Assembly: GCA_026196275.1 (NCBI GenBank)
Contig: JAPHTQ010000024.1
Location: 1-56,012, forward strand
DNA: 56,012 bases
Reading direction: 5' to 3'
Source: Gammaproteobacteria bacterium
Lineage (GTDB): Bacteria; Pseudomonadota; Gammaproteobacteria; Thiohalomonadales; Thiohalomonadaceae
The translations under genes and the position numbers were made by a program. Below, one piece after another: positions 45,589-48,646 of the stretch. The notes beneath the pieces were generated by a model. That model saw nothing but the letters and a program-made list of their open reading frames with translations, did no database searches and was not told where the DNA came from. Positions within the stretch are counted from its first letter, which is position 1, and every line of letters starts with the position of its first letter.

Positions 45589-45792
45589 TTACTTGCGGCC
45601 GTACTTCTGGCGGAACTTGTCGACGCGGCCACCGGTATCCAGAATCTTCTGCTTGCCGGTATAGAAGGGGTGGCAGGCTGAGCAGACTTCCAGGCTCAGG
45701 TCATGACCGGCAGTAGAGCGGGTCTTGAAGGAGTTACCGCAGCTGCAGGTAACGTTAACTTCGTTGTAATCGGGATGGATATCCGCTTTCAT
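45589..45792 (-). CDS. rpmE: 50S ribosomal protein L31, zinc-binding form
   Basis: 67 residues. Four zinc ligands are visible, C16 and C18 (CSCG) and C37 and C40 ([15 protein letters not shown]), so this is the C+ form rather than the zinc-independent YkgM/RpmE2 form. The basic end [12 protein letters not shown] is typical. It is followed by a terminator and preceded by a 367-nt gap that holds a palindromic element. Confidence 0.97.
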
Positions 45793-45933
45793 TTCGTTCT
45801 AACCTCGTCAATATGGTTATGCGCCGCTACCCATTTCCACAACAGGCACCGCGCAGCCCTTTAAACAGCCCGACATCCTACGAAAAAGCTGGCTGCTTGG
45901 CAAGTAATTATGCCAACGTGTCAGGGTGAGCGC

Positions 45934-46063
45934 ACACTCACATAAAGTGAGTGTCCGGCTGGCGTAACTTCCTGATTTGCGGTTGTCGGCCGCAGGGATG
46001 CGGCCTTCAAGCCTACATGGATGTATTCACGGCGTACCGCAAATCAGGAAGTTACGCCAGCCG
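45934..46063. repeat. MITE-like palindromic element in the rpmE|glgP gap
   Basis: The 45793-46159 gap has no gene. It holds a perfect 28-bp inverted repeat (45956-45983 and 46036-46063; arm begins CGGCTGGCGTAACTTCC). Inside the 52-nt loop is GGCCGCA-GGGA-TGCGGCC, a 7-bp hairpin (about 45988-46005), followed by AAGCCTACATGGATGTATTC. Directly left of the element is a separate 8-bp hairpin, ACACTCAC / GTGAGTGT (45934-45941 and 45947-45954). No transposase is encoded. The structure fits a non-autonomous palindromic repeat; I saw only one copy in this window. Confidence 0.8.
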
Positions 46064-46159
46064 TCGAAAAGTATGCGGATGTCCTGGCCAACGCATTGGA
46101 ATCGGGACCACTTCCTCGACTATGCTTGATACAGTCTACCGCTGCAGGAATCAGCCACC

Positions 46160-48646
46160 ATGAACCACACCCCGGACAAAACCCTTCTCAAGTACGATTA
46201 CGAAGGGATGGATACCGCCTCGATCAAGCACTCCCTGGCCAACCGCATGATCTACACCGTCGGCAAGGATAACTTCACTGCCACCGATCGCGACTGGTTC
46301 CACGCCGTCGCCCATATGGTGCGTGACCGGCTCACCGAGCGCTGGATGGAGACCATGCGCAGCTATTACAACACCGACACCAAGCGGGTCTATTACCTGT
46401 CGATGGAGTTTCTTATCGGCCGGACCCTGCTCAACAGCATCCTCAATCTGGGCTTCTATGAAGAGGCCAAGACCGTGCTGCAGGAGCTGGGCATGGACAT
46501 CGAGGAGATCGCCGACCTGGAGTTCGATGCGGCGCTGGGCAATGGGGGGCTGGGGCGGCTTGCCGCCTGCTTCCTCGACTCCCTGGCCACCCTGCGCCTG
46601 CCCGGCTATGGCTACGGCATCCGCTACGAGTACGGCATGTTCCGCCAAGCCATCGAGAACGGCGCCCAGGTGGAGCACCCGGATAACTGGCTGCGTTATG
46701 GCAACCCATGGGAATTCGCCCGTCCCGAGGTGCTGTTTCCGGTCAAGTTCTTCGGCCAGGTAGTCGAATATCGCGGCGATGACGGCCATGTCCGTCACCA
46801 CTGGGTCGATACCGAGGAGGTCATGGCCATGGCCTATGACACCCCGATCCCAGGCTACGATGTGGACACCGTCAATAACATGCGCCTGTGGGCGGCCAAG
46901 GCGACCCGTGACTTCGACCTCAAATATTTCAATGAGGGCAACTACACCAAGGCGGTGGAGGACAAGACCCACTCGGAGAACCTCTCCAAGGTGCTCTACC
47001 CCAACGACGTCACGGAGATGGGCAAGGAGTTGCGCCTCAAACAGCAGTATTTCTTCGTCAGTGCCTCACTGCAGGACATTATCTCCCGCTTCCTCAAGCA
47101 GTACGATGATCTCTCCCTGCTGCCGGAGAAGGTGGCGATCCAGCTCAACGACACCCACCCCTCGATCGCCATCCCCGAATTGATGCGCATATTGTTGGAT
47201 GTCCACCATCTGGGGTGGGACAAGGCGTGGGATATCACCGGCCGTACCTTCGCCTACACCAACCACACCCTGCTGCCCGAGGCGCTGGAGACCTGGCCGG
47301 TGCCGTTGTTCGAGCGCATGCTGCCGCGGCACCTGCAGCTTATCTATGAGATCAACCACCACTTCCTCAACGAGGTGATGCACTGCTATCCCGGCGATGT
47401 GGAGCGGCTGCAACGGATGTCGATCATCGATGAACAGGCCGAACGTCAGGTGCGCATGGCCCACCTGGCCATCGTCGGCAGCCACAAGGTCAATGGCGTG
47501 GCGGCGCTGCACACCGAGCTTCTCAAGCAGCAGATGTTCCATGACTTCAATGCCTTCTATCCCGACAAATTCATCAACATCACCAACGGCATCACCCCCC
47601 GACTGTGGCTCCACCAGTCCAATCCGCAGCTCACCGAGCTGCTCAACGGACAGAATGGCAAGAGCTGGTTGACCCACCTGGATCAACTGCGTGAACTGTT
47701 ACCCCTGGCCGAGGAGAAAAGCTTCCGCGAAAAATTTCGTCGCATAAAACTCGAGAACAAGCGGATGCTGGCGGAGAAAATTGGCCACCATCTCGGCCTC
47801 AGCGTCGATCCGCACAGCCTGTTTGATGTACAGGTCAAACGCATTCATGAATACAAGCGCCAGCTGCTGAATGTGCTGCACATCATCACCCGCTACAACC
47901 ACCTGCGTGACGGCACCGACAGGCCCGTGGTGCCGCGCACGGTCATCTTCTCCGGCAAGGCCGCTCCCGGCTACTGGATAGCAAAGCTGATCATTCGTCT
48001 GATCAACGATGTGGCCGACATCATCAACAACGACCCGCAGATCGGCGATAGGCTCAAGGTCGTATTCATCCCCAACTACGACGTCACCACCGCCACCGAC
48101 ATCATTCCGGCGGCGGATCTCTCGGAGCAGATCTCCACTGCCGGCACCGAGGCCTCCGGCACCGGCAACATGAAACTGGCACTCAACGGCGCACTGACTA
48201 TCGGCACCCTGGATGGGGCCAACATCGAGATCCACAATGAGGTGGGAGAGGAGAATATCTTCATCTTCGGCCACACCGTGGAACAGATCAGGGAACTACG
48301 CCATAAAGGTTACAACCCGCGTGAGCACTATGAAAGCAACATTGAGCTCAAACGCACCCTCGACATGATTGCCTCAGGCTTTTTCTCCCCCGGCGAACCC
48401 GACCGTTTCAAACCGCTGATCGACAATCTGCTGCAACAGGACCCCTACTTCCTGCTGGCGGACTTTGATGCCTACGTCGCCACACAGGAGCGTGTCGATG
48501 CCCTCTATCTGGACGAGGAGGAGTGGAGCCGCAGGGCGATCATCAATGTACTCCAGTGCGGCCACTTTTCATCGGATCGGACCATTAACGAATACGCCGA
48601 GAAGATTTGGAATATCAAGCCGGTGCTACACAAACACCCGGGATAG
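46160..48646 (+). CDS. glgP: Glycogen/starch phosphorylase
   Basis: Phosphorolysis of alpha-1,4-glucan to glucose-1-phosphate. It has 828 residues. The N-terminal GT-B half includes YYLSMEFLIGRTL and EEIADLEFDAALGNGGLGRLAACFLDS. The PLP lysine lies in the signature EASGTGNMKLALNGALTIG, with DGANIEI after it. LDPHSLFDVQVKRIHEYKRQLLN-type residues are also seen (here SLFDVQVKRIHEYKRQ). No other glg genes are adjacent. A shared terminator separates it from the convergent rho gene. Confidence 0.98.
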   Translation: MNHTPDKTLLKYDYEGMDTASIKHSLANRMIYTVGKDNFTATDRDWFHAVAHMVRDRLTERWMETMRSYYNTDTKRVYYLSMEFLIGRTLLNSILNLGFYEEAKTVLQELGMDIEEIADLEFDAALGNGGLGRLAACFLDSLATLRLPGYGYGIRYEYGMFRQAIENGAQVEHPDNWLRYGNPWEFARPEVLFPVKFFGQVVEYRGDDGHVRHHWVDTEEVMAMAYDTPIPGYDVDTVNNMRLWAAKATRDFDLKYFNEGNYTKAVEDKTHSENLSKVLYPNDVTEMGKELRLKQQYFFVSASLQDIISRFLKQYDDLSLLPEKVAIQLNDTHPSIAIPELMRILLDVHHLGWDKAWDITGRTFAYTNHTLLPEALETWPVPLFERMLPRHLQLIYEINHHFLNEVMHCYPGDVERLQRMSIIDEQAERQVRMAHLAIVGSHKVNGVAALHTELLKQQMFHDFNAFYPDKFINITNGITPRLWLHQSNPQLTELLNGQNGKSWLTHLDQLRELLPLAEEKSFREKFRRIKLENKRMLAEKIGHHLGLSVDPHSLFDVQVKRIHEYKRQLLNVLHIITRYNHLRDGTDRPVVPRTVIFSGKAAPGYWIAKLIIRLINDVADIINNDPQIGDRLKVVFIPNYDVTTATDIIPAADLSEQISTAGTEASGTGNMKLALNGALTIGTLDGANIEIHNEVGEENIFIFGHTVEQIRELRHKGYNPREHYESNIELKRTLDMIASGFFSPGEPDRFKPLIDNLLQQDPYFLLADFDAYVATQERVDALYLDEEEWSRRAIINVLQCGHFSSDRTINEYAEKIWNIKPVLHKHPG

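Follow-up and report, generated by a model that had tools for sequence, protein, structure and literature searches.

YPAL (RU-2) repeats of Yersinia were reportedly described by De Gregorio in 2006. A sequence of this family is printed by Delihas (2007; PMC2759123, available in part), and the accessible portions of the literature portray YPAL as a dispersed intergenic palindrome of ∼168 bp without a protein, which has internal inverted repeats, lacks a terminal TA motif and terminal repeats, and is flanked by duplications of 3 to 26 bp (PMC2229807). The element analyzed here, found in a 56,012-nucleotide stretch of gammaproteobacterial DNA (the window), shares with YPAL the dispersed intergenic position, the palindrome, the approximate size, and the lack of a protein, and the printed Y. 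pestis sequence folds into the same three helices, namely, P1, P2 (loop AAGGAT), and P3 (loop ATGGAT, bulge TTTAC). However, elements of the window family end in terminal repeats (16 bp in the window element), and their duplications are 10 bp long; because the core is common to YPAL but the ends and duplications differ, the element is not filed as YPAL.

Like bacterial MITEs, the element is short and non-coding, has terminal repeats and target duplications, and occurs in several copies, but its interior is a structured module common to chassis with differing ends, and the search described below revealed no autonomous parent. REP/BIME elements and integron attC sites are likewise structured palindromes of variable sequence, although with another motif, size, and architecture. 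The RNAs CsrB, CsrC, RsmY, and RsmZ also contain multiple hairpins with GGA loops, at distances suited to CsrA dimers; these, however, are single-locus sRNA genes, whereas the window element is mobile and consists of a long stem topped by two hairpins. Neither the element nor the window as a whole has an Rfam match at the gathering threshold. CsrA was discovered in glycogen metabolism (glgC), and, according to the available part of the same source, its SELEX consensus is RUACARGGAUGU, with loops mostly of six nucleotides and most hairpins of no more than four contiguous pairs, its relative RsmE binds ANGGAN loops, and a CsrA dimer bridges sites 10 to 63 nucleotides apart, with an optimum above 18 (PMC7652899). 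Most CsrA targets contain two GGA stem-loops at bridging distance, as stated in the accessible text of PMC7535981.

Almost certainly, the window feature is a MITE-like insertion: it spans 165 bp, codes for no protein, ends in 16-bp terminal repeats, and is bounded by a 10-bp target duplication (Table 1). An insertion of this type between two genes is ordinary in kind. An earlier sequence-only reading had described a perfect inverted repeat with 28-bp arms between rpmE and glgP, and both its coordinates and its complementarity proved exact: the arms are 28 nucleotides each, 100% complementary, and separated by a 52-nucleotide spacer. No other perfect inverted repeat with a spacer of ≤200 nucleotides is as long in the whole window, and the longest arms in 20 dinucleotide shuffles were 11 to 16; the fold is far more stable than expected (z-scores of −8.1 for RNA and −11.0 for the minus DNA strand; 0 shuffles equally stable). 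The nested 7-bp hairpin with a GGGA loop noted in the same reading is also present, the 7 bp and the GGGA being due to an extra A-U pair that the folding program places over an AGGGAT hexaloop; a second hairpin inside the arms, P3, had escaped it. The element itself extends beyond the stretch described there, to CAGGGNNNNCGCAYAC ends, and is flanked by a duplication that is retained at 8 of 10 positions. The glgP start codon lies 73 bp past the element end. The independent 8-bp hairpin reported on the left side was found as well, and, because the aligned copies on contigs C76 and C33 lack it, it looks like a quasi-palindrome that turned perfect.

Table 1. Positions of the insertion, its parts, and the neighboring genes in the window (genes were called with a custom ORF scorer)
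Feature	Positions	Strand	Basis
Left target-site duplication GCCAACGTGT	45912..45921	.	Matches 46087-46096 at 8/10
Whole MITE-like element, 165 bp	45922..46086	+	Terminal repeats, flanking duplication; relatives' copies 163-173 bp with 10-bp duplications
Left terminal repeat CAGGGTGAGCGCACAC	45922..45937	+	End comparison
8-bp hairpin ACACTCAC-ATAAA-GTGAGTGT	45934..45954	+	Fold; absent in aligned C76 and C33 copies
Left arm, stem P1	45956..45983	+	Inverted-repeat search, covariation
52-nt two-hairpin module	45984..46035	+	Conserved core, covarying helices in 100 sequences
Hairpin P2, GGCCGC-AGGGAT-GCGGCC, loop AGGGAT, GGA 45996-45998	45988..46005	+	Fold and module alignment
Hairpin P3, stem GCC-TAC/GTA-TTCAC-GGC, loop ATGGAT, GGA 46019-46021, 3' bulge TTCAC	46011..46033	+	Module alignment
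Right arm, stem P1	46036..46063	+	Inverted-repeat search, covariation
Right terminal repeat, minus-strand reading CAGGACATCCGCATAC	46071..46086	-	End comparison
Right target-site duplication GCCAACGCAT	46087..46096	.	Pairs with left copy 45912-45921
rpmE (ribosomal protein L31), left neighbor	45589..45792	-	ORF and translation
glgP (glycogen phosphorylase), right neighbor	46160..48646	+	ORF; homologs in relatives

The suspicion that the structure is a dispersed repeat was borne out by a DNA search of the same genome, which retrieved two further near-full-length copies and a 43-bp fragment at C66. The nearest copy (C76:25616-25779, 164 bp when extended to its ends) is 83% identical over 157 bases, and the other (C33:5646-5811, 166 bp) is 85% identical over 102 bases, and its core is inverted with respect to the outer ends. 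By eye, the flanks TCAACTGG and GGCAAATCGC are common to these two copies, each shifted by one base. Among same-family relatives, 7 of the 56 genomes searched contain pattern matches, where the copies have CAGGGNNNNCGCATAC ends and span 163 to 173 bp, with one exception of 214 bp. Altogether, among 14 distinct elements with CAGGG-type ends, the duplication is conserved at ≥9/10 positions (or 9/9, 10/11) in 9, at 8/10 in the window copy, and is not seen in 4. A search of 19 other genomes identified GlgP homologs in 13 of them, with 18 loci in total. In two relatives (G001 and G007; 2 of the 18 loci had an established rpmE neighbor), the reversed rpmE beside glgP is kept without the element, and the intergenic gaps there are 189 and 191 bp, compared to 367 bp in the window; subtraction of the element and one duplication from the latter (367 − 165 − 10) leaves 192 bp, which fits insertion. 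The opposite outcome that the sequence-only reading had considered, a single copy strictly conserved at this locus, is thus contradicted both by the additional copies and by the two relatives that keep this gene pair without the element.

A search with PF13808 for an autonomous parent found no match in genome G000, and, although matches were present in four of five relatives, no CAGGG-type end pair surrounds them; no parent with the same ends was found in this search. Target duplications of ISAs1 elements are 8 to 10 bp; an ISAs1-type parent was sought in this search, and ends matching an insertion sequence of the family were not found. As to carriage by phages, exact matches in viral_contigs numbered 0. 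The three larger copies in this genome (C61, C76, and C33; n = 3) all occupy divergent gaps, namely, rpmE|glgP, tkt|metK, and the gap between a phosphofructokinase-like ORF and adk (names from ORF reading).

The perfection of the arms had been taken as a sign of recent insertion, which the comparison of copies does not support. When a consensus was derived from the six arms of the three copies in this genome, both window arms were found to carry the same three changes (C4T, T7C, and C23G), whereas the C76 arms contain three unpaired changes on the left and one on the right, and C33 is similar. Three changes shared by both window arms indicate that the two arms of a copy evolve in concert, through either template switching or selection, so that their perfection is no clock; paired change in both arms, whether by template switching or by compensatory selection, accounts better for it. 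Decay of the target duplication to 8/10 and 83% identity to the nearest copy also disfavor recency. Template switching between the arms would shift both arm perfection and loop orientation.

The inner sequence had been thought to resemble repeats of other Gammaproteobacteria, and such matches, including the printed YPAL/RU-2 sequence, were indeed found. The pattern GCAGGGATGC-N6-20-TACANGGATGTA occurs in at least 119 stretches in genome_contigs. Among 80 titles of the matches listed, the names belong to what we take to be gammaproteobacterial groups, the sole exception being a MAG titled Rhodobacteraceae (L077). Of 276 genomes from the class, 21 matched a pattern that leaves the loop open, and the reversed-pattern control matched 0. 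In a stricter sample of the phylum, 23 of 397 genomes matched, with 23 of 164 in the class of the window and 0 of 233 in the other classes (class tally by hand). Copy numbers can be high: in Methylotuvimicrobium buryatense 5G, a cultured methanotroph, the P3 hairpin was matched 391 times at ≤1 mismatch. Modules can also be arrayed in tandem, as at G451:C1:94445-95378, where five P3 matches in the same direction are spaced 227 to 229 bp apart. For the module in 18 fetched loci, Rfam yielded no family at the gathering threshold; the only match was a SAH riboswitch (60.2 bits) upstream of an ahcY-like ORF at L015:5191-5269. Permissive Rfam matches on the minus strand, to mir-2331 (28 of 100 bits), mir-2004, and Ysr224 (18.8 of 70), are sub-threshold and were set aside as chance or fold similarity.

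For analysis of the module structure, 100 distinct modules were taken from 123 matches in L050-L168, leaving out those with other spacing or <60 bases of flank. The pattern that selected these modules fixes both loops, so only the stems of this set count as evidence. The module is a 52-nucleotide three-way junction formed by the long variable stem P1 and the hairpins P2 and P3. P1 (25 to 30 bp) is free in sequence, and yet 87.5% of its positions are paired, compared to 46.8% after the right-hand partners were permuted across the sequences; at 23 of its 25 pairs, all four Watson-Crick types are represented. P2 (94.0% paired versus 63.5% shuffled) consists of five pairs, a T.Y mismatch with T in 96 modules, and two further pairs, and a conserved A occupies the junction between P2 and P3. 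P3 is built as GC-N-TAC/GTA, a TTCAC bulge, and N-GC, with 86.0% of the outer pairs formed versus 76.7% shuffled; the N/N position is C-G in 57 modules and G.A in 27, so this pair is sometimes non-standard.

Because the loops were fixed in this set, a loop-open search was made, and 175 of the 185 distinct P3 copies have kept the GGA. By contrast with the GGA, the second base of the P3 loop varies freely (G in 81, T in 80, C in 16, and A in 8), and the last base is T in 128, C in 55, and A in 2. In the P2 loop, which lay outside the selection, an ANGGAN hexaloop closed by C-G is present in 19 of 31 copies; 2 have a hexaloop without GGA, and the script detected no such hairpin in the remaining 10. 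One copy (L183) has lost the GGA in both loops.

These loops suggest a ligand. The two window loops, AGGGAT and ATGGAT, both fit ANGGAN, their GGAs are 20 nucleotides apart, inside the 10- to 63-nucleotide range of CsrA, and P3 contains UACANGGAUGU. The genome itself encodes CsrA, residues 1-59 of which align with E. coli CsrA (1y00; 1.2e-28) and residues 1-52 with RsmE (2jpp). Plus-strand transcription of the element would yield an RNA with the two ANGGAN loops, which one CsrA dimer would bridge. Judging from sequence and predicted folds, CsrA is probably the ligand of the module, and the account as a whole, that of a MITE-borne module that binds CsrA once transcribed, is the best explanation, judged somewhat more likely than not. 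Several observations fit this account less well. Near the window copy, the plus strand showed no promoter; the P2 stems, at 7 bp, are longer than those of most SELEX hairpins; and CsrA does not account for the conserved TTCAC bulge, the junction A, or the T.Y mismatch, all of which are conserved. The csrA gene is present in 21 of 21 carrier genomes and 221 of 255 others, a difference that is not significant (Fisher P = 0.087).

Within P1, the GGA strand has more G.T pairs than A.C mismatches, at 131 versus 60 at fixed positions and 342 versus 192 when arms were seeded with Watson-Crick pairs only and the seed was excluded from the count. All six groups lean the same way, although the excess is individually significant only in G239 and G094. 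This asymmetry suggests that selection acts on a single strand in its folded state, RNA or single-stranded DNA alike, and selection of this kind is very probable. A rather unlikely alternative is that the folded plus strand, like attC sites or REP/RAYT elements, is recognized as single-stranded DNA by an enzyme of recombination or transposition, with ANGGAN as the motif of the enzyme and the CsrA match coincidental. Such a substrate would be consistent with stems that vary in sequence while the structure is kept and the unpaired bases are conserved, with the flips of the loop relative to the outer ends (window, C76, and L024 versus C33 and others), and with YPAL, the targets of which span or adjoin dyads and the duplications of which vary in length (available text of PMC2229807).

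Gene orientation bears on the same question. Relative to tandem genes, the module lies in the same versus the opposite direction in 25 versus 27 cases in M. buryatense (an even sample of 40 × 20 kb with 93 modules), 5 versus 31 in G094 (40 stretches, L235-L274; P = 1.3e-5), 5 versus 9 in G292, and 20 versus 23 in mixed named loci, or 55 versus 90 when these four are summed by hand; a cruder count gave 15 versus 25. Consistent sense orientation was not found in these samples, which counts against the CsrA reading, and G094 is strongly antisense. Both this lack of an overall sense bias and a G.T excess that peaks in G094, a genome with mostly antisense modules, speak for the DNA substrate, the second fitting single-stranded DNA as well as RNA; our guess is that the antisense excess may reflect purging of harmful sense insertions. 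Against the DNA substrate, the window and GTAACTAYTC families have terminal repeats and fixed duplications of 10 and 8 bp, respectively. Double-stranded DDE transposition gives fixed duplications of this kind together with terminal repeats. Moreover, two equal ANGGAN hexaloops 20 nucleotides apart are what CsrA requires.

The same module is carried in different chassis. One has CAGGG-type ends and 10-bp duplications; a second has GTAACTAYTC ends and 8-bp duplications (among nine elements, 8/8 in four, 7/8 in two, and none in three); and six further elements have CGTCATCTAA-type ends. Conversely, an element of the same genome (C7:34912-35102; L206:1500-1691) combines CAGGG ends and a 10/10 duplication with a different palindromic interior that contains a GGGAGAGGGGTTGGGGTGAGGGG-type repeat, which shows that the interior can be exchanged independently of the ends. 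Coreless short forms also exist, of 58 bp (L225; duplication 10/10) and 59 bp (L220; duplication 8/10). These deletion derivatives, the exchanged interior at C7, and the paired changes in both window arms could be expected of a plain selfish MITE, in which template switching alone keeps the palindrome perfect and the module has no ligand. We consider this improbable: template switching leaves unexplained the invariant GGA beside free loop neighbors, the covarying P2 with its kept T.Y mismatch, and the presence of one core in chassis with differing ends across many genera. Finally, an rpmE-glgP transcription terminator or attenuator, or a locally conserved glgP leader structure, is scarcely credible despite the position and the very stable fold, with no terminator-like site within 45780-46200, empty sites in two relatives that also have rpmE beside glgP, and the module at 0 of the 18 other glgP loci, several of them shortened by contig ends.

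Under the preferred CsrA reading, the element would spread as selfish DNA, with unrelated MITE chassis carrying the same module. As the loops fit the CsrA rule and the module is mobile, such repeats may scatter candidate CsrA sites through bacterial genomes. Any action in cis would depend on the landing site, which for the window copy is the upstream region of glgP, a gene of glycogen metabolism, from the study of which CsrA first became known; for genomes that contain hundreds of copies, action in trans by titration of CsrA would be conceivable. If CsrA binds the module, mobile repeats would be a source of new CsrA sites beside many genes and a possible genome-wide sink for a global regulator, and long-known orphan repeats (YPAL and its kin) would gain a candidate function. 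More tentatively, and again from sequence comparison, the module might be a mobile two-site CsrA-binding RNA cassette that has been taken up by unrelated transposon chassis, has spread through Gammaproteobacteria to hundreds of copies in places, and rewires or buffers the CsrA regulon, with YPAL as its first described member, the ligand of which went unrecognized. Among the matches listed, no paper joining CsrA with YPAL-like repeats was found in the open literature searched, and PMC2759123 was the sole relevant paper containing the exact core strings; the term CsrA has a count of 0 in the accessible portions of PMC2759123, PMC2229807, PMC2267715, and PMC5193452.

The module also occurs in elaborated forms. 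In longer copies (L221, L210, L216, L039, and L042), P2 or P3 encloses extra hairpins, several of which have GGA loops, as in L042 and in the reverse complement of L210, in keeping with the CsrA reading; the insert in L221 has its GGA hairpins on the opposite strand. A different-looking repeat, in which GCAGGGATGC is accompanied by a CTACANGGATGTAG hairpin, is present in L087 and L125 (Silvania confinis).
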